Translations under genes and position numbers: made by a program | Source: Dehalococcoidales bacterium | Lineage (GTDB): Bacteria > Chloroflexota > Dehalococcoidia > Dehalococcoidales > RBG-16-60-22 | Assembly: GCA_028712355.1 (NCBI GenBank) | Contig: JAQTQH010000001.1 | Span: 73,864-111,215, forward strand | Length of the DNA: 37,352 bases | Direction: 5' to 3' | Shown here: piece by piece, positions 3,641 to 17,162 of the stretch | How the letters are laid out: every line of letters begins with the position of its first letter | Position numbering within the stretch: the first letter of the stretch is position 1 | Notes under the pieces: model-generated | What the model saw: the letters and a program-made list of their open reading frames with translations, nothing else | What the model was told of the DNA's origin: nothing | The model's database searches: none

Positions 3641-4328
3641 CCCGGGAATAGGGCACCTTTGCCTCTTCAACATTCAACAGGCTGCTTTCCTTCACGCCGC
3701 AGAAGGCATCTTCCGGAATAACATCGCTGCAGACCACCTGCTCGAAAGCCGGATAGTAATTTGTTGCCTCGCGGAAAGCATGCAGATAGGCGGCACGCAG
3801 CGCCTTCGCGGTGATACCGGTGCATTTACCCAGGATATCGACGGTAACCATCAGTTCCCCCTGCACCCCCCTGACGCTCCCGCCACCTTTGAAAATTCTG
3901 ATGCCGCCCGCATCGCTGCCGCCTGCAGTAATTTCAACTCTGGCCTGCTCTCCCGGCTCCGCCCGGTTTTCTCCGCCCGTTGGCACGGGTTTAATGGCGA
4001 ACGTTGCGATAGAATGCAGATTAATGATATTCGCCAGGACACAGGCGGCGGTCATTTTCGCCTCGGGGATGGTAATTATCCGGGTGACTGTCATTTTTAC
4101 TGTTTCCATATCCACGATGCCGCACACCAGTTCGTAAACCCGGTCACCCTGCAGCTTCATGCGAACCGTTTTCTGTTCTTCGTCAACGGCATAATAGCCC
4201 CGGTGCTCATTTTTAAAGTATTTTTTAACTCGGTTAAAAGCCGTGCTTGGTATTTCCTTGCCGCGCCCGGAATTCCGCTTCTTTTTCTTGAACCGTGGTC
4301 TCTGGAAATGGAACGGGTTCCTCAGCAC
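3618..4328 (-). CDS. hypothetical protein, possibly YbjN-like
   Basis: GTG start overlaps the cobO stop (GTGCTGA); VRMKLQGDRVYELVCGIV...TIPEAKMTAACVLANIINLHSIATFAI...YYPAFEQVV resembles YbjN-type patterning. Confidence 0.55.
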   Translation of the reverse strand: MLRNPFHFQRPRFKKKKRNSGRGKEIPSTAFNRVKKYFKNEHRGYYAVDEEQKTVRMKLQGDRVYELVCGIVDMETVKMTVTRIITIPEAKMTAACVLANIINLHSIATFAIKPVPTGGENRAEPGEQARVEITAGGSDAGGIRIFKGGGSVRGVQGELMVTVDILGKCTGITAKALRAAYLHAFREATNYYPAFEQVVCSDVIPEDAFCGVKESSLLNVEEAKVPYSRVKPASPD

Positions 4329-4867
4329 TCGATGCCCTCCCGCGCCGGGACGCCTTCCTCATAGTAGTGCTTGATGTCCTTGACCTCGCTCACGAGATCG
4401 GCGGCGGCGATAATCTCCGGGGGAGCCCCGCGCCCGGTAAAAACTATTTCCACGCCTTCCGGCTTATCACGGATAACCTGCAGCATTTCCTCGATGGTTA
4501 CCAGGTGGAAGAGGTAACCGGTCAGGATTTCATCGAAGATGACGATATTGTACTCGCCGGACAGCATCGCCGCCCGCGTTTTCGCCAGTGCATTCTTCGC
4601 CATCTCAATATCTTCCCGGTCGGGCGACGGTTTGACGTGGACAAAACAGGGCTTGCCGAATTGCTCTATGGTAATATAATCCGATACCCGCATGGCAGCA
4701 TCAAGTTCACTGTAATGCCGGCCTTTCAGAAACTGCCCGATGTAGGTCTTGAGCCCGCAGCCCATCGCCCGGAACGCCAATCCCAGCGCAGCGGTCGTCT
4801 TACCTTTGCCATTCCCGGTGTAGATTTGGACATAACCCCTACCCAGTGGATTGGAATCCGTTTTCAT
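4322..4867 (-). CDS. cobO: cob(I)yrinic acid a,c-diamide adenosyltransferase
   Basis: YVQIYTGNGKGKTTAALGLAFRAMGCGLKTYIGQFLKG (P-loop); FDEILTGYLFHLVTIEEMLQVI. Confidence 0.93.
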   Translation of the reverse strand: MKTDSNPLGRGYVQIYTGNGKGKTTAALGLAFRAMGCGLKTYIGQFLKGRHYSELDAAMRVSDYITIEQFGKPCFVHVKPSPDREDIEMAKNALAKTRAAMLSGEYNIVIFDEILTGYLFHLVTIEEMLQVIRDKPEGVEIVFTGRGAPPEIIAAADLVSEVKDIKHYYEEGVPAREGIEC

Positions 4868-4944
4868 GGTGCCTTCTTCCTCCCGAAATCCCGGAATAAG
4901 CCAAGTATAAAATGCGCCGCGGCATGTGTCAAACGAGCGGAGGT

Positions 4945-4973
4945 TTGACTCTTTATCAATCTTATGTTATATT
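4945..4973 (+). promoter_or_regulatory. strong sigma70-type promoter
   Basis: TTGACT (4945-4950), 17-nt spacer, TATATT (4968-4973). Confidence 0.65.
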
Positions 4974-5029
4974 AGTCACATCATGGTGAGTCTCAGAAAA
5001 TTAGAGAGATTTGGCTTCATCTTTACCGG

Positions 5030-5124
5030 GCGCACTGGGGTGCGCTTGGGGGTATAGCCGCGCGTTAAGTTAAATTATTCCAAAATGGCATTTTAGAATA
5101 CCTCCCCAAGCGGGAGGTATTTTT
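5030..5124 (+). promoter_or_regulatory. candidate attenuator / riboswitch-like leader with terminator hairpin directly before the start codon
   Basis: Hairpin GCGCAC-TGGG-GTGCGC (5030-5045); hairpin 5077-5099; terminator-like ATACCTCCC-CAAGC-GGGAGGTAT-TTTT (5098-5124); CTTGGGGGTAT (5045-5055) complementary to ATACCTCCCCAAG (5098-5110), giving a mutually exclusive fold. Confidence 0.6.
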
Positions 5125-7086
5125 ATGGGGAAAATGGCCGCACAGACTGGACTAAAACAAAAAAAGGACTCCGAGACACTGACGCTGGATGGCGTGCAGA
5201 CTATCCCGCAGCTTATCCGGCACAACTACGAGCGGTGGCGGGATGGTACCGCTATGTGCATGAAGCAGTTCGGCATCTGGCAGCGGTACAGCTGGGCGGA
5301 CTATTACCAGAAGGTGAAACATCTATCGCTGGGGCTGATTAGCCTGGGGCTGCAGCCGCAGGACGTTGTCTGCATCATCGGGGATAATGAGCCGCAGTGG
5401 TTCTGGGGCGAGTTCGCCACCCAGGCGGCAGGGGGCATTGCGACCGGTATTTTCGTGGACTCTATCCCTTCCGAGGTGAAATACATCGCGGAAAAATCAC
5501 GCGCTAGATTCGCCATCGTCAACGACCAGGAGCAGACCGATAAATTCCTCGAAATCAAGAGTCAGCTTCCCTCGCTGAAAAAAGTGATTTACTGGGACCT
5601 CAAGGGTCTCCGCGACTACGACGACCCTGTTCTCATAAGTTATTCCGAAGTCCTCAAATTAGGCGCGGATTATGAAACAACCCATCCTGACCTGTTCGAG
5701 CAGAACGTAGCGAAAGGGCGGGGTGATGATACCGCTTTTATCTATTTCACCTCGGGCACCACCGGACTGCCCAAAGGCGCCCTCCTCACCCACCGGGCGC
5801 TGCTCAATACCGCCCGGGGCTTTATCAGCCGCTTCCCGCTGAGCGAACATGACGACCTGATTTCCAATTTTCCGGCGGCCTGGGTGGGCGATAGTTTCTT
5901 CGCGACGGTTCCCCATCTGCTCACCGGAGCGCGGCTGAATTTCCCGGAAGAACCGGAGACCGTCGCCGAAGATACGCGGGAAGTGGGACCGAACTTCGCC
6001 ATCTACGGGCCGCGGCAGTGGGAGAGCCTGGTGCGGGAAATCCAGGTCAAGATGATCGATGCCCATCCTTTGAAACGCTTCGCCTATAAACTTTTTATGC
6101 CCGTCGGGCACAAGATTGCCGATATTAAATTCAGTGGACAGGAACCCGGCTGGAACTGGAAGCTGCTGCATGGCATCGCTTACTGGGGATTGTTCCGCGC
6201 CCTGCGTGACCGGCTTGGACTCAGCAAGGTGCGCTTCGCCGTGACCGGCAGCTCGGTACTCAGCCTGGACACCTTCCGCCTCATTCATGCCATCGGCGTC
6301 GAGCTGCGGCAGAGCTACGCCAGCACCGAAGCCGGCTTCATCTCCTCACACAGCAAAGGGGAAATACGCTTCGAGAGCCTGGGGCGACCGGCGCTGGGCA
6401 CCGAGGTGAGAATCACCGATGGAGGCGAATTGCTGGTACGCAGCGGCGCCATGTTCAGCGGGTACTACGAGGACCCCGGCAAAACGGCGGCGACCCTCAA
6501 AGACGGCTGGTGCCACACCGGCGATGCCGTTCATATCAACGAGGACGGGCATATCATTTTCATGGACCGCATGGAGCACATGGGCGAACTCAAGTCCGGT
6601 ATCAAGTATGCCCCGCAGTACATTGAGGGCAGGCTGCGCTTCAGCCCTTATATCAAAGATGCGATGGTCATCGGCGGCAAGGACAAGGATTTCGTTTCCG
6701 CCATCCTGAACATCGATTTCACAATGGTCGGCAAGTGGGCGGAGCGTCACCACATCCCCTACACCACCTTCGTCGACCTCTCCCAGAAAACCGAGGTCGC
6801 CGACCTGGTGCGGCAGGACCTGAACCGGGTGAACAGCTACTTGCCGGAGGGTTCGCGAGTGCGGAAATTCGTCCTGCTGCACAAAGAGTTCGACCCGGAT
6901 GAAGCCGAACTGACCCGCACGCGTAAATTGCGGCGGGAATTCATGGAAAAGAGATACCATACCCTCATTGAAGCGCTCTATGGAGAGAGCGGCGAGGTCG
7001 CTGTAGAAGCCCCGGTAACCTACCGCGACGGACGTCAGGGCGTGGTCAGCACCGTGATTAAAGTAAGGAGCGTCGAGAAGGATTAA
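5125..7086 (+). CDS. AMP-dependent synthetase / long-chain acyl-CoA ligase
   Basis: FIYFTSGTTGLPKGALLTHRALL; QSYASTEAGFISSHS; GWCHTGDAVHINEDGHIIFMDR. Confidence 0.92.
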   Translation: MGKMAAQTGLKQKKDSETLTLDGVQTIPQLIRHNYERWRDGTAMCMKQFGIWQRYSWADYYQKVKHLSLGLISLGLQPQDVVCIIGDNEPQWFWGEFATQAAGGIATGIFVDSIPSEVKYIAEKSRARFAIVNDQEQTDKFLEIKSQLPSLKKVIYWDLKGLRDYDDPVLISYSEVLKLGADYETTHPDLFEQNVAKGRGDDTAFIYFTSGTTGLPKGALLTHRALLNTARGFISRFPLSEHDDLISNFPAAWVGDSFFATVPHLLTGARLNFPEEPETVAEDTREVGPNFAIYGPRQWESLVREIQVKMIDAHPLKRFAYKLFMPVGHKIADIKFSGQEPGWNWKLLHGIAYWGLFRALRDRLGLSKVRFAVTGSSVLSLDTFRLIHAIGVELRQSYASTEAGFISSHSKGEIRFESLGRPALGTEVRITDGGELLVRSGAMFSGYYEDPGKTAATLKDGWCHTGDAVHINEDGHIIFMDRMEHMGELKSGIKYAPQYIEGRLRFSPYIKDAMVIGGKDKDFVSAILNIDFTMVGKWAERHHIPYTTFVDLSQKTEVADLVRQDLNRVNSYLPEGSRVRKFVLLHKEFDPDEAELTRTRKLRREFMEKRYHTLIEALYGESGEVAVEAPVTYRDGRQGVVSTVIKVRSVEKD

Positions 7087-7093
7087 AAGAAAC

Positions 7094-7166
7094 TGTCATT
7101 GCGAGCGAAGCGAAGCAATCTCTAAAAGATTGGGGTTGCTTCTTCACTACCCTCCTCGCAATGACA
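7094..7166. repeat. palindromic intergenic repeat, TGTCATTGCGAG...CTCGCAATGACA family
   Basis: Terminal inverted match TGTCATTGCGAG/CTCGCAATGACA with internal GAAGCAATC...GGTTGCTTC; related copies at 10473, 22356, 26889, 31290. Confidence 0.85.
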
Positions 7167-7187
7167 CTGATACGAAGGATTGACAAA

Positions 7188-8072
7188 ATGGCAGAGTTTT
7201 TACAATATGTGATTACCGGTCTGGCGGTGGGCATGGTCTATTCCCTGATTGCCCTCGGCTTTGTGCTGGTGTGGAAATCGAGCAGCGTGGCGAACCTGGC
7301 GCTGGGGCAGATTGTGCTGCTTTCTTCATGGTTCACCTACGGCATGCTGACACAGGCGGGCTTTCCTCTCTGGATAGCTCTGCCGCTGGTCATCCTCTTC
7401 GCCCTGGGGCTGGGCTGGGTCATCGAGCGCTTCACTCTGCGCCCCCTCATCGCGCAACCCATCCTGGCGCTCATCACGGTGACGCTGGGGCTGGGCTACT
7501 TCATCGAGGGTATCGTGCACTTTGTCTGGCCATGGAGCGTGGCGGCGCTGCCCCGCATCTTCCCCCAGTCAGTCGTCCATATCGGCCCGGCGGTTGTCTC
7601 GCAAGAATACCTCTGGGTCGTCGGCATCTCGCTGGTCGTCTTTATCGTCCTGACTTTGTTCTTCCGCTATCACCGCATGGGTATCGCCATGCGCGCCACC
7701 GCTGATGACCAGAAGGCGGTGCAAGCCTGCGGAATCCCGGTCACGGTCGTCTTTTCCCGCTCTTGGATGTTCGCCTGCGTGGTCGCCGCCATCAGCGGCA
7801 TCCTTATTTCCAGCATCGGCGGAATTACCTACGGGCTGGTCGAGACCGGATTGAAAGCCTTTTCCGTGGTGATTTTAGGCGGGCTCGATTCGTTCGGGGG
7901 CGCCATGCTGGCGGGACCCATCATCGGGCTGGCGGAGAGCGTGGGGGGCGGTTACCTGACGCCGGTTTTATGGGCGGGGGTCAAGGACATCATCCCCTTC
8001 ATCATGATTATTATCGTCATGGTCATTAAACCTTACGGGCTGTTCGGTGAACAGCGCATCGAGAGGATATAA
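7188..8072 (+). CDS. livH: branched-chain amino acid-type ABC transporter permease (LivH family)
   Basis: MAEFLQYVITGLAVGMVYSLIALGFVLVWKSSSVANLALGQIV; start moved from 7161, which lies inside the repeat. Confidence 0.9.
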   Translation: MAEFLQYVITGLAVGMVYSLIALGFVLVWKSSSVANLALGQIVLLSSWFTYGMLTQAGFPLWIALPLVILFALGLGWVIERFTLRPLIAQPILALITVTLGLGYFIEGIVHFVWPWSVAALPRIFPQSVVHIGPAVVSQEYLWVVGISLVVFIVLTLFFRYHRMGIAMRATADDQKAVQACGIPVTVVFSRSWMFACVVAAISGILISSIGGITYGLVETGLKAFSVVILGGLDSFGGAMLAGPIIGLAESVGGGYLTPVLWAGVKDIIPFIMIIIVMVIKPYGLFGEQRIERI

Positions 8073-9125
8073 ATGAGTCTACCCTGTGGCACACGTAACT
8101 ACACCTACGCCGATGACATGGCGATTATGCGTACCAGGACGCACCAGGTCCTGTTTATTGTTTTTCTCGTTTTGCTGTTCACCGCGCCGTACTACCTGGG
8201 CAACTACTGGCTGGGGGTGGTCAACCTCATCGGCATTACGCTGATTGCCGCCCTGGGCTTGAACCTGCTCATGGGCTACTGCGGGCAGCTTTCCATCGGG
8301 CATGCCGGCTTCATTGCCGTGGGCGCCTACACTACCGCCGTACTTACCGGGCGCTTCGAATTACCTTTCCTGGTTGGGCTTCTCGGCGCGGGACTGATGG
8401 CGGGGCTGGTGGGGCTTATCTTCGGGCTGCCTTCCATCCGCGTCAAGGGGTTCTACCTTGCCATCACGACCATCGCGGCGCAGATTATCATCATCTGGGT
8501 CATCAACCACTGGAGCCTGACCGGCGGATTTGTCGGTATAAAAGTGCCCTATGCTTCTATCGGCGGACTGGTGTTCCGCAGCGAGTCCAGCCAGTTCTAT
8601 TTGATTATGACCATAGCTGCGCTGTGCACCTTCTGCGCCAAGAACCTGGCGCGGACACGGGTAGGCCGGGCGTTCATCGCCGTGCGGGACAATGACCTCG
8701 CCGCCGAGGTAATGGGCATCAACCTGCTCTACTATAAGCTGCTCGCCTTCTTCATCGGCTGTTTTCTGGCGGGCATCGCCGGGGCGCTCCTTGCCCACTG
8801 GATCGGCTACATGCAGACCGAACAGTTCAGCCTCACGGAGTCCATTCTGTACGTGGGTATGATTATTATCGGCGGTCTGGGTACCACGCTGGGTCCCATC
8901 CTGGGCGTCGTCTTCATCCGCCTGCTCCAGCAGGTACTGGCAACACAGATTGTCCCATTTTTGGAAGAAACCATGACCTTTCTGCCTTCCGGGTTTGCCA
9001 CCGGCATTGGCCCCATGATTTTCGGGTTAGCCATTATCCTGTTCCTTATCATCGAACCCCGGGGCATGGCGCACCGCTGGAATCTGTTCAAGTCGGCTTA
9101 CCACCTCTGGCCTTTTTCCTATTAG
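8073..9125 (+). CDS. livM: branched-chain amino acid-type ABC transporter permease (LivM family)
   Basis: IALGLNLLMGYCGQLSIGHAGFIAVGAYTTAVLTGRF ... RVGRAFIAVRDNDLAAEVMGIN. Confidence 0.92.
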   Translation: MSLPCGTRNYTYADDMAIMRTRTHQVLFIVFLVLLFTAPYYLGNYWLGVVNLIGITLIAALGLNLLMGYCGQLSIGHAGFIAVGAYTTAVLTGRFELPFLVGLLGAGLMAGLVGLIFGLPSIRVKGFYLAITTIAAQIIIIWVINHWSLTGGFVGIKVPYASIGGLVFRSESSQFYLIMTIAALCTFCAKNLARTRVGRAFIAVRDNDLAAEVMGINLLYYKLLAFFIGCFLAGIAGALLAHWIGYMQTEQFSLTESILYVGMIIIGGLGTTLGPILGVVFIRLLQQVLATQIVPFLEETMTFLPSGFATGIGPMIFGLAIILFLIIEPRGMAHRWNLFKSAYHLWPFSY

Positions 9126-9202
9126 TTCCATGAGGAGGAACAAAGTTATGTAGGTGTCAGTATTTTCAACGATAACTACTTGAAAAATATTAGAGGAGAA
9201 CT

Positions 9203-10459
9203 GTGAAAAAGACATTAATATTAGTATCCCTGTTCCTCTGCCTGGCGCTGCTGCTGGGCACCCTGCCGCTTTCCGCCTGCGGCAAGCCCGCCGCGGAAAA
9301 ATTCCTCAAAGTAGGCATGATGACCCCCTCGACGGGTGCTGCTGCGGAAAAGGGCGCGCCGGGCGGCGATGGCGTCCGCGATGCCATCGAGTACATCAAT
9401 AACGAACTGGGCGGAGTCAACGGCATTCCCATCAAACTACTCTGGAGAGACAGCGGCTACGATGCCAGCAAAGCTGCCACCATCGTCAAAGAGTATATGG
9501 CAGAAGGCGCCCTCATGTTCACCACCCATGCTTCGGCGGAAATGACCTGGGTCATGGAACTGGCTAACCGCGCCGAGTTTCCCGGTATGGCAACCTATAC
9601 CGCACCAAACATTTACCGCCCGCCCCAGCACATCTACGGGCAATTGCCGGACTACGGCGACGACTGGAGCGCCTTTGCCGATTATTATTTGAAGAACATC
9701 TGGAAAGGTAGCGGCAAACCCCGGATGGCGCTGCACCTGCTCAACAACTCCACCGGCTACGGCGCCCGCGACGCCGCCAAGGCGCTGGCGGACAAGATGG
9801 GCATTGAAATCGTGGCAATCGAAGAACACACAGCCACCTCTATCTCGGAAACCGATAGTCTGAACCGCATTAAAGCCGCCAAGGCGGATGTGCTTTATAT
9901 TTCCAGCACCCCCAAACCCACCGCCCTCATCGTCAAAAACGCCCGCGAGCTGGGGATGTTCCCCGCGATGACCATCGGTTCGGGACATGCCGGGCTGACC
10001 AAGGCGCTCGTTGACCTTGCCGGCGCCGATGTAGCGGAAGGCGTTTATGGCGTGTTCCCCACGGTAAGCTGGGGCGATAATGTGCCCGGCATGGCGAAAA
10101 TAGTGGAGTACGCCCAGAAGCTGCACCCCGCGGATGTCGGCAACCTGGACTACCTCTCATGCTGGTCGGCAGCCCTGACTGTCGCCGAGATTCTCAAGAC
10201 AACATTGGAAACAACCAGCTACGATGTGCTCGCCAAGGGCAACGTGGAATCCTGGCGCGCCATCGAGAAGAACGGCATCCAGAAGCTGAACTATGATGCC
10301 GCCGGCCTGCATGGCCCTGCGAAGTATGTCGAGGGGGACAACCGCCTCGCCAAGTCGGTGCGCGTTCTCCAGGTAAAAAGCGGGCAGATAGTGCCGGTAA
10401 GCAACTGGGTGGATGCCCCGGTGGTCAAATACGAGGAATATAGCTGGTTCGGTAATTAA
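9203..10459 (+). CDS. ABC transporter substrate-binding lipoprotein (Leu/Ile/Val-binding family)
   Basis: Signal peptide with lipobox LSAC; LKVGMMTPSTGAAAEKGAPGGDGVRDAIEYINNELGGVNGIPIKLLWRDSGYD. Confidence 0.9.
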   Translation: MKKTLILVSLFLCLALLLGTLPLSACGKPAAEKFLKVGMMTPSTGAAAEKGAPGGDGVRDAIEYINNELGGVNGIPIKLLWRDSGYDASKAATIVKEYMAEGALMFTTHASAEMTWVMELANRAEFPGMATYTAPNIYRPPQHIYGQLPDYGDDWSAFADYYLKNIWKGSGKPRMALHLLNNSTGYGARDAAKALADKMGIEIVAIEEHTATSISETDSLNRIKAAKADVLYISSTPKPTALIVKNARELGMFPAMTIGSGHAGLTKALVDLAGADVAEGVYGVFPTVSWGDNVPGMAKIVEYAQKLHPADVGNLDYLSCWSAALTVAEILKTTLETTSYDVLAKGNVESWRAIEKNGIQKLNYDAAGLHGPAKYVEGDNRLAKSVRVLQVKSGQIVPVSNWVDAPVVKYEEYSWFGN

Positions 10460-10472
10460 TAGATAGTATTTG

Positions 10473-10549
10473 TGTCATTGCGAGCGAAGCGCAGCAATCT
10501 CTCAAGCGTACGGTATTGCTTCGGGCGGCATGACGCCCTCGCAATGACA
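10473..10549. repeat. palindromic intergenic repeat, TGTCATTGCGAG family
   Basis: TGTCATTGCGAGCGAAGCGCAGCAATCTC...TATTGCTTC...CCCTCGCAATGACA. Confidence 0.85.
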
Positions 10550-10619
10550 CGGTGAATGTTTAGTCGGTTTCTCTCATGCAGTATAATGCAAGAAGCGTTA
10601 TGGCCGGAAGGAAGATTAA

Positions 10620-11411
10620 ATGCTTAAGCTGAACAACATTGAGGTCACCTATCTCAATGTTATCCGCGTGCTGCACGGCGTCTCCCTCAACGTGCCGGAG
10701 GGCGCTATTGTTGCGTTGCTGGGTGCCAACGGCGCAGGGAAGAGCACCACACTCAAAGCTATCTCCGGGCTGCTGCGCGTGGAAGAAGGCGAGGTCACCG
10801 ACGGCAGCATTGAGTGGAACGGCGAGCGAATCGATAAGAAAGGCGCCGAGGAAATCGGGCGGCTGGGCATCCTCCAGGCGCTGGAAGGCCGGCGCGTCTT
10901 CGGGCACCTGACCGCCGAGGAGAACCTGATGGTGGGAGCATTCACCCGCCGCGACCGGCGCGCCGTCAAGAGCGACCTTGAGATGGTCTATCATTATTTC
11001 CCACGCCTCAAAGACCTGCGGCATAATACCGCCGGTTACCTCTCGGGCGGCGAACAGCAGATGCTGGTCATCGGGCGCGCCATGATGGCGACCCCCAAAT
11101 TGATGATGCTCGATGAGCCGTCGCTGGGGCTGGCGCCTCTGCTGGTGGAGGAAATCTACAATATCATCAAGCGGTTCAACACCGAGCAGAAGACCTCGGT
11201 ACTGCTGGTGGAACAGAACGTGCGTATTGCATTAAGTATTGCCAACTACGGCTATGTTATGGAAAACGGCCGCGTCGTGCTGGACGGCACCGCCGATTTC
11301 CTGCGCAACAACGAGGACGTGAAGGAGTTTTACATCGGACTGTCCGCCGTCGGGGCGAAGAAAAGCTACCGGGAAGTGAAACATTATAAAAGGCGCAAGC
11401 GATGGCTGTAA
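10620..11411 (+). CDS. livF: ABC transporter ATP-binding protein (LivF family)
   Basis: Walker A GANGAGKSTT; signature YLSGGEQQMLVIGRAMM; Walker B LMMLDEPSLGLAP. Confidence 0.92.
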   Translation: MLKLNNIEVTYLNVIRVLHGVSLNVPEGAIVALLGANGAGKSTTLKAISGLLRVEEGEVTDGSIEWNGERIDKKGAEEIGRLGILQALEGRRVFGHLTAEENLMVGAFTRRDRRAVKSDLEMVYHYFPRLKDLRHNTAGYLSGGEQQMLVIGRAMMATPKLMMLDEPSLGLAPLLVEEIYNIIKRFNTEQKTSVLLVEQNVRIALSIANYGYVMENGRVVLDGTADFLRNNEDVKEFYIGLSAVGAKKSYREVKHYKRRKRWL

Positions 11412-12679
11412 AGAAGGACTATTACGACGAACTGGAGACCATGACATCAGAGGCGCGCGAGAAGTATCGGAACGAGAAGCTGGCGGAGACCGTCAGTCAC
11501 GCCTATCGCTACGCGCCGACCGCGAGAGAAATCTTCGATAAAGCCGGCGTCAAGCCGGAGCAGGTGCGCACCGTCAAAGACCTGGAAAAGCTGCCCGTCA
11601 CCCGCAAGAACGACCTGATTGAGTTGCAGAAGAAGCACCCGCCCTACGGCGGCTTGCTCTGCGTCGCGCCGGAAGAAGTCGACCGTGTCTTCATCTCCCC
11701 GGGGCCGCTTTACGAGCCTATCCAGCACGCCGATATACGGTGGTTTGCCAGGGCATTCTGGGCGGCCGGTTTCCGCAAGGGCGACGTGGTGATGAACACC
11801 TTTACCTATCACCTCTCGCCGGCGGGCATCCTCTTTCATGAAGCCATCCGCGATTGCGGTGCCACGGCAATACCGATGGGCACCGGCAACACGGAAATCC
11901 AGGTGCAGACCATGCGAGACCTCAAAGTGACCGGCTTTGTGGGGACGCCCACTTTTTTGATGAACGTTATTAAGCGGGCGGAAGAACTGGGACTAAAGCC
12001 GCGCACCGACTTTGCCCTGACCAAAGCCTGGTTCACCGGCGAGATGCTGCCGACCTCGCTGCGCAAGACATTTGAAGAGGACTATCATATTAATACGTCG
12101 CAGGCTTACGCCGTCACCGAGCCGGGCGGCGCCATCGCCTACGAATGCCCGCAGAAATCGGGCTTGCATTTCATGGACGAGTACGTCATCGAGATTATCG
12201 ACCCGCAGACGGGCAAGCAGCTTGGCCCCGGCGAGGTGGGCGAAATCGTGGTAACGCCCATTCACAATCGGCAGTGGGGGCTTATCCGCTTCGGCACCGG
12301 CGACCTCTCCTCCTATACGACCGAAAGATGTCCCTGCGGGCGGACGGCAGACCGACTGAGCGGCATTGTGGGGCGTGCCGGGGATGCGGTAAAGGTGCGG
12401 GGGATGTTTGTGGTGGGCAGGCAGGCGGAACAGGTGCTGGCGGGCTTTGGGACAGTCTCGCGCTTTCAACTGGTGGTCACCCGGCAGGAACACCGCGATG
12501 AAATGACCCTCAAGCTTGAGCTCAAGGACGACAAGGCGGATATGCAGGAGCTAGCGAAGGGCATAAACCAGAAGTTCCAGGATGTCTGCCGGGTCAAGCC
12601 GGACAAAATCGAGTTCGTTAAGGCAGGTGTAATTCCTGAAAAAGCGCCGAAGATAGTGGATGAGCGGAAGTGGACGTAG
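11402..12679 (+). CDS. phenylacetate-CoA ligase family protein (PaaK-like AMP-forming ligase)
   Basis: YYDELETMTSEAREKYRNEKL; LEKLPVTRKNDLIELQ; RFGTGDLSSYTTERCPCGRTADRLSGIVGRAGDAVKVRGMFV; overlaps livF stop. Confidence 0.88.
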   Translation: MAVKKDYYDELETMTSEAREKYRNEKLAETVSHAYRYAPTAREIFDKAGVKPEQVRTVKDLEKLPVTRKNDLIELQKKHPPYGGLLCVAPEEVDRVFISPGPLYEPIQHADIRWFARAFWAAGFRKGDVVMNTFTYHLSPAGILFHEAIRDCGATAIPMGTGNTEIQVQTMRDLKVTGFVGTPTFLMNVIKRAEELGLKPRTDFALTKAWFTGEMLPTSLRKTFEEDYHINTSQAYAVTEPGGAIAYECPQKSGLHFMDEYVIEIIDPQTGKQLGPGEVGEIVVTPIHNRQWGLIRFGTGDLSSYTTERCPCGRTADRLSGIVGRAGDAVKVRGMFVVGRQAEQVLAGFGTVSRFQLVVTRQEHRDEMTLKLELKDDKADMQELAKGINQKFQDVCRVKPDKIEFVKAGVIPEKAPKIVDERKWT

Positions 12680-16076: not shown

Positions 16077-17162
16077 ATGGCAGCACCTTATAAAACGGGT
16101 GTCGCCAACTTACCCCTTCATTACGGCAAAGCCCCGCCCTGGCTTTTCCAGCGCATGGTCAAGCTCGCCCGCGAAATCACCATCGTCATAGTGAGCGATT
16201 TCGGCGCCGCGGAAATGCTGCGCCGCTTATCCCACCCCTACTGGTTCCAGGCTTTCGGCTGTGTGCTGGGCTTCGACTGGCACAGCAGCGGCGTCACCAC
16301 CACGCTCTGCGGCGCTCTCAAGGAAGCACTCAAGGGATTGGAACGGGATTTAGGCTTCTTTGTCGCCGGCGGCAAGGGCAGGACCTCGCGGCAGACTCCC
16401 ACAGAAATAACCGAATGGGGCGAGCGCCTTTCCTTCGACCCGCAGCCGCTGGTCTACGCCAGCCGCATGTCGGCGAAGGTGGACAGCGCTGCTATCCAGG
16501 ACGGCTACCAGCTTTACCACCATTCGTTTTTCTTCACGGATAAGGGCTCGTGGACGGTCGTCCAGCAGGGCATGAACGAGACTAACCGCTACGCCCGCCG
16601 CTACCACTGGCTGAGCGAAGCCGTTACCGATTATGTCAATGAGCCGCATTCCGGTATCCTGGCGGAAACCATCGGGGCGGCGCTCAATCTCGTTGCGGCG
16701 GAAAGCGCCCCGGCGCGCACCACCATCACCGGCATCGCCACGCAGGAGAAACCGGAGAAGACGTTATTAGAACTGAAAAAAATTAAAACGCTGAGCCTGC
16801 CGGCAAGGCACGATATAACCGTAAGTGACCTGCACCCGGACAGCCTGAGCAAGATTATCTTAAGTACTTATGACCGGCAGCCGAAGGATTTTGAACATTT
16901 ATTAGGACTGGAAGGCGTCGGGGCAAAGACCATCCGCGCTCTGAGCCTTATTGCCGAACTGGTCTACGGTGTCGCCCCCAGCTACCGCGACCCAGCCCGC
17001 TACACCTTCGCCCACGGCGGCAAGGACGGCATCCCTTACCCGGTCGACCGTAAAACTTACGACCAGAGTATCGAATTACTCGCCCGCGCTATCCGCCGGA
17101 CGAAGCTCGGCATCAGCGAGCAGAATGACGCATTAAGCAGGCTAAGCCGCCTGATGAAATAA
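16077..17162 (+). CDS. DUF763 domain-containing protein
   Basis: KTGVANLPLHYGKAPPWLFQRMVKLAREI ... FGAAEMLRRLSHPYWFQAFGCVLGFDWHSSGVTTT. Confidence 0.88.
   Translation: MAAPYKTGVANLPLHYGKAPPWLFQRMVKLAREITIVIVSDFGAAEMLRRLSHPYWFQAFGCVLGFDWHSSGVTTTLCGALKEALKGLERDLGFFVAGGKGRTSRQTPTEITEWGERLSFDPQPLVYASRMSAKVDSAAIQDGYQLYHHSFFFTDKGSWTVVQQGMNETNRYARRYHWLSEAVTDYVNEPHSGILAETIGAALNLVAAESAPARTTITGIATQEKPEKTLLELKKIKTLSLPARHDITVSDLHPDSLSKIILSTYDRQPKDFEHLLGLEGVGAKTIRALSLIAELVYGVAPSYRDPARYTFAHGGKDGIPYPVDRKTYDQSIELLARAIRRTKLGISEQNDALSRLSRLMK

Follow-up and report, generated by a model that had tools for sequence, protein, structure and literature searches.

A predicted phenylalanine-responsive leader-peptide attenuator upstream of an acyl-CoA ligase and Liv transporter operon in Dehalococcoidales

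In C. glutamicum, the leader AroR (Phe-Tyr-Phe) controls aroF by phenylalanine limitation (Neshat et al. 2014, via PMC11802643), and according to what PMC11802643 relates of it, the system responds to limitation of phenylalanine and not of tyrosine. By like reasoning, attenuators have been predicted in Actinobacteria (PMC1262725). For Dehalococcoidia or Chloroflexota, no attenuator was found in the open-licence literature, an absence that is weak evidence. The element described here has no Rfam family and no published description that could be found, and it is thus an uncatalogued attenuator family of a kind that is itself known. It lies in a stretch of 37,352 nucleotides from a Dehalococcoidales genome (the window), where it precedes an operon beginning with an acyl-CoA ligase gene. 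Its features are:

4945..4973, + strand: sigma-70-type promoter TTGACT-17-TATATT with an extended -10 (TG at 4965-4966)
4983..5057, + strand: leader peptide ORF of 24 codons, MVSLRKLERFGFIFTGRTGVRLGV*, supported by the in-frame ATG test and nearly leaderless
5016..5024, + strand: putative regulatory codons Phe(TTC)-Ile-Phe(TTT), termed F1 and F2 for the two Phe codons
5025..5035, + strand: segment 1, ACCGGGCGCAC, 5' arm of the leader hairpin
5040..5055, + strand: segment 2, GTGCGCTTGGGGGTAT, 3' arm of the leader hairpin and antiterminator strand
5096..5110, + strand: segment 3, GAATACCTCCCCAAG, partner of segment 2 (antiterminator) or of segment 4 (terminator)
5112..5124, + strand: segment 4, GGGAGGTAT and T run, terminator 3' arm, here including the Shine-Dalgarno sequence of the ligase gene
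5125..7086, + strand: acyl-CoA ligase (AMP-binding, PF00501), first structural gene of the operon
7161..12679, + strand: LivH, LivM, substrate-binding protein, LivF and PaaK-like CoA ligase, the rest of the operon, with the same gene order in relatives

It is very likely that the element is a real and conserved leader-peptide attenuator, and the two mutually exclusive folds that the preliminary description of this DNA had proposed are supported by about 80 relatives. That it works as a ribosome-mediated transcription attenuator of the trp/phe type, sensing phenylalanine through tRNA charging, is probable on the sequence evidence.

The leader reading frame and its peptide

Every element that had been noted before is present, none of them displaced by more than one or two bases. 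The promoter includes a TG before the -10, and transcription is predicted to start from it at about 4980-4981. Around the leader, 2 promoter-like sites are observed versus 0.6 expected, and relatives carry similar promoters at the corresponding place. A divergent promoter-like site (TTGACA-17-TATACT, 4904-4932, minus strand) lies ahead of a corrinoid adenosyltransferase gene (4322-4867).

The leader had been taken to be untranslated, which was wrong, as 4983-5057 is a conserved ORF that opens with the ATG at 4983, 2-3 nt past the predicted transcription start, and closes with TAG at 5055-5057. A search of 60 related genomes placed the block conserved across families at window positions 5016-5052, and relatives keep this frame open too, their start codon standing 4 to 18 codons ahead of F1. 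Of 78 loci, 70 have an ATG upstream of the core and in frame with it, versus 2 and 5 for the other frames; in a smaller set of 65 loci the count is 59, versus 1 and 3, and the loci of that set that lack an in-frame ATG carry GTG or TTG in a comparable position. The operon is thus preceded, judging by frame conservation, by a short leader ORF of the attenuator type.

The nucleotide core is TTC-NNN-TTT-AY-NNG-CGC-AC and the corresponding peptide core Phe(TTC)-x-Phe(TTT)-Thr-x-Arg-Thr. In all 78 loci the two Phe codons, which do not form a run, stand at a fixed place ahead of the alternative structures, F2 being TTT in 78/78 and F1 being TTC in 76/78; the search pattern left the choice between TTC and TTT free at either place, and among its matches the figures are 77/77 and 75/77. 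The CGC-AC of the core is part of an RNA stem, and past Arg-Thr, where hairpin loops of differing length follow, the frame is not conserved, with a stop codon immediately after Arg-Thr in four loci (L112, L084, L168 and L213). The part of the peptide that can be regarded as constant is therefore Phe-x-Phe-Thr, with Ile replacing Thr in a few loci.

From the ATG up to the last six codons before F1, the codons are about neutral (omega about 0.97), whereas those last six are under some amino-acid constraint (omega about 0.4), both figures being rough, as they rest on 29 overlapping, non-independent pairs. The Thr at -2 ahead of FxFT uses all four codons. This constraint, the position of FxFT, which is fixed over very many families, and the retention of F1, although a stall there is unneeded for masking segment 1, would suit a nascent-peptide arrest switch of the TnaC/SpeFL kind, in which FxFTxRT together with a free aromatic metabolite would arrest the ribosome and thereby select the same two folds. 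The near-fixed codon choice at both Phe places, taken with the constraint before F1, would also fit an arrest peptide, but such peptides normally tolerate synonymous codons and F2 is always TTT; Arg-Thr is accounted for by the RNA stem, the residues past it are unconserved since the loop length shifts the frame, and pheST and aromatic biosynthesis genes, which are found downstream in some relatives, are classical targets of charging-dependent attenuators. An arrest switch is the chief competing explanation but an unlikely one, and it is similarly doubtful that FxFTxRT is a new arrest-peptide sensor of phenylalanine, phenylacetate or its CoA ester that controls an aryl-acid and aromatic amino acid regulon in Dehalococcoidales.

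Alternative helices and the proposed mechanism

The 166-nt leader folds better than 200 of 200 shuffles (z -3.15). The GCGCAC-TGGG-GTGCGC hairpin, already recognized before, is present at 5030-5045. Among the loci, hairpin 1 (segments 1:2) shows hardly any variation: five of its pairs never vary, and compensatory C-G to T-A changes occur in two aligned loci (L064 and L225). Its loop varies in both length and sequence, behaviour more in keeping with a spacer than with an aptamer. The term "riboswitch-like", which had been applied to this leader, is not upheld by this loop, nor by the most conserved part of the leader, which lies within a conserved reading frame. A true riboswitch, in which the conserved TTCNNNTTTACC-hairpin-CTTGGGG RNA would bind a ligand directly and the ORF would be incidental, could explain why nucleotide conservation exceeds what the amino acids need and why five pairs of hairpin 1 are fixed, but it leaves the in-frame ATG (70/78 versus 2 and 5), the amino-acid constraint upstream of F1 and the variable loop unaccounted for and has no Rfam match, and it is very improbable.

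The Rfam scan gave no match at gathering score in the window, and none of the matches with E up to 5 was convincing. The best sub-threshold match was Phe_leader (RF01859; 24.8 bits versus a cut-off of 55, E 0.037), of which the element is not a member. A riboswitch of known class was rejected, as no Rfam aptamer matched in the window or, at the element, in 8 related loci. The T-box model RF00230 likewise had no match at the element in the window and these 8 loci, in which the scan found only a T-box elsewhere in L114 (93.3 bits, L114:6001-6287, minus strand). This T-box leader lies near the element, and T-boxes and the attenuator thus coexist.

The terminator hairpin ATACCTCCC/GGGAGGTAT (5098-5106/5112-5120) was described correctly and extends to about 12 pairs, and its T tract does abut the ligase gene (T5 at 5120-5124, ATG at 5125). 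Also the complementarity of CTTGGGGGTAT (5045-5055) to 5098-5110 was borne out, whereas of the AT-rich hairpin in between it can be said that it exists in the window (about 5076-5098), but that the spacer there is not conserved in relatives. The homologous leaders, collected and tested for covariation as had been recommended, show covariation of both the antiterminator and the terminator. The terminator (3:4) is found in 80/80 loci with extensive covariation, 98.7% of the positions in its arms being paired versus 74% with arms swapped between loci. The antiterminator duplex (2:3) has -16.5 kcal/mol with swapped strands and -18.6 with its own, the latter a value that 0 of 20,000 permutations equal, and its covariation score (0.245 versus 0.178 shuffled) is the top among all slid registers. 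Relatedness inflates such covariation counts. In family f17, CGGGG is paired with CCCCGG, and in family f81, which belongs to another order (L235, L236), segments 2, 3 and 4 have changed together to TTAGAGG/CCTCTAA/AGAGGT. Linked changes across all three strands are hard to explain other than by alternative pairing, and these comparisons support an antiterminator and an intrinsic terminator that exclude each other.

In the window and its genus mate, the Shine-Dalgarno sequence lies within the hairpin 3' arm directly ahead of the start codon, as had been observed, but this arrangement is not general. Control could on this basis be mainly translational, the hairpin concealing the GGGAGG of the ligase gene, but most of the 80 loci place the start codon tens of bases further downstream while the T-rich tail after the hairpin is retained, so that termination is the general mode. 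Concealment of the Shine-Dalgarno sequence as the main mode of control is hence hardly to be expected, and it may be an added layer in the window.

Equilibrium folding of the complete leader yields the terminator every time, which is expected for a kinetic switch, and only folds at the decision point are therefore informative. If segment 1 is masked the way a ribosome at F2 would mask it, and the RNA has grown to just short of segment 4, the stall permits 2:3 in 77/80 loci; with the ribosome over segment 2 it is formed in 0/80, the latter by construction of the mask. These folds fit an assignment of phenylalanine shortage to stalling and read-through and of phenylalanine supply to termination. 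According to the mechanism that we infer, RNA polymerase would start at about 4980 and a ribosome would load on the leader ORF without delay. With ample charged tRNA-Phe, this ribosome would clear both Phe codons and cover segment 2, whereby the 3:4 terminator would form and transcription halt ahead of the ligase gene. Under phenylalanine shortage, it would slow down at TTC-x-TTT, masking segment 1 at most, and segment 2 would be free to capture segment 3, so that no terminator would form and the operon would be transcribed.

Several observations speak against the charging model. Most leaders have two Phe codons only and no run of them; in ribosome-free folds, the leader hairpin and 2:3 are able to coexist in many loci; and in the window's own leader, the F2-stalled fold has just 2.7 expected 2:3 pairs, compared with 7.9 for the F1-stalled fold. 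Relative to the end of GTGCGC, stop codons are located at -9 to +33 nt (65-locus set), so that a ribosome waiting at the stop codon would not always be over segment 2. Also the catabolic-looking operons behind some of the elements, described below, argue against it.

Distribution and downstream genes

Altogether, 80 distinct loci carry the element, roughly one for each genome, and the genomes are 76 of the 156 from Dehalococcoidales and a few from another order. The free-Phe-codon pattern has 77 matches in 76/156 genomes of the order, and a reversed control pattern has 0 matches in the same 156 genomes. A class-wide draw of 393 genomes gave four matches outside the order, three of them real, one family (L114/L166, L235, L236); the other (L237, genome G329) is a chance match without TTC codon or leader ORF. 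The same applies to six further pattern matches (L099, L117, L119, L122, L133, L150), and a BLAST match (L009/L096, G034 C21) was rejected, as it shares only a terminator-like block.

Immediately downstream, 62 of the 80 loci have an orthologue of the acyl-CoA ligase gene of the window (65-89% identity, for those measured), and, as far as the contigs extend, LivH, LivM, binding protein, LivF and PaaK-like ligase come after it. The remaining 18 loci have other downstream genes. One of them (L213, genome G125, minus strand) has pheST (1884-2921 and 3-1820), with PheS (TIGR00468, 295 bits versus a cut-off of 237) and PheT next, and its leader peptide, MPGRVVSQNGYFSFIFAFTVRT*, is Phe-rich. A DAHP synthase gene or shikimate operon follows in L055, L100, L159, L214 and L215, the shikimate gene order being aroF-B-D-E-K-A. 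L093 and L225 have an opine-dehydrogenase-like gene with ABC genes that we take to be TrpXYZ-like, an assignment made from the family fold and not from a specific model, and L114 has TrpYZ-like genes with a sodium symporter (SNF). Further genes are a HisC-like aminotransferase (L167), a metallo-beta-lactamase-fold gene (L064) and CoA-transferase III or 2-hydroxyacyl-CoA dehydratase operons (L107, L141, L143, L152, L168, L169, L224). The last, mostly of family f32, look catabolic, and for these the opposite sign of control would be expected.

PheST, DAHP synthase/shikimate genes or TrpXYZ-like transporters are thus the downstream genes in 9 loci, which suggests that the controlled genes make, import or charge phenylalanine or aromatics, the ligase operon being linked to this by its neighbourhood only. 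The earlier guess of a ligand tied to the transported acid came indirectly close, as the regulon points to the supply of phenylalanine and aromatic amino acids. Aromatic residues make up 33% of the last six pre-core codons in non-ligase leaders, which are Tyr-richer, versus 13% in ligase leaders. Trp directly before Arg-Thr is found in five loci only, none of them upstream of the ligase gene; this TGG before CGC-AC (L055, L159, L214, L215, L114) occurs only upstream of DAHP synthase or Trp-type transporter genes, where it may provide extra Trp sensing.

In six of the genomes searched (G038, G081, G047, G052, G154, G093), the ligase operon adjoins iorA (TIGR03336, about 688-719 bits); the family-wide search for iorA is noisy, as ferredoxin-type domains also score, and only matches of at least about 645 bits were used. 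Where checked, iorB follows iorA, and in L220 and L222 a class I/II aminotransferase gene follows iorAB. A 4HBT thioesterase is encoded in L220 and another at the operon end in L218. The genome from which the window comes has its iorA on a different contig. An aminotransferase, IorAB and an aryl-CoA ligase would in combination link aromatic amino acids to aryl acids, and in Methanococcus maripaludis aryl acids have been reported, in work cited in PMC4162585, to be used for aromatic amino acid synthesis. The operon, with its putative aryl-acid transporter and its CoA ligases, probably recovers aryl acids for the synthesis of phenylalanine and related amino acids, the direction of flow and the substrate being those that this neighbourhood suggests. 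Elsewhere in the window, a GH3-family protein (PF23571, PF03321; 29506-31281, + strand) and a DUF763 protein (PF05559, 450 bits; 16077-17162, + strand) are encoded. The GH3 family is best known from plant acyl-amido synthetases.

An attenuator family and an aromatic amino acid regulon are thereby defined in an order for which metagenomes are the main source of knowledge, and a strongly conserved and so far unexplained ligase-Liv-PaaK operon, with iorAB nearby, gains a testable function in importing aryl acids and turning them into phenylalanine and related amino acids. The two Phe codons with their fixed synonymous choice are also a clean case for codon choice in attenuators.

Comparison with known attenuators

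With the trp attenuator of E. coli, the element shares the four-segment logic and the position of segment 1 just past the regulatory codons. TrpL reads W-R-T, and so do some Dehalococcoidales leaders (TGG CGC AC), but a Trp codon is present there in 5 loci only, whereas the Phe codons are the constant feature. The pheST and pheA (pheL) attenuators of E. coli likewise have Phe codons in the leader ORF and an antiterminator that competes with a terminator, and pheST is a target also here (L213), but most of the Dehalococcoidales leaders are without a run of Phe codons. Among the known attenuators, the AroR leader is the one that the element most closely parallels in its proposed working: both have a short Phe-x-Phe leader peptide, and AroR precedes a DAHP synthase operon. 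The Dehalococcoidales element belongs to a different phylum, stands mainly before the aryl-acid ligase/Liv operon and, unlike AroR, has the fixed TTC-x-TTT and the GCGCAC/GTGCGC hairpin; homology is not implied.
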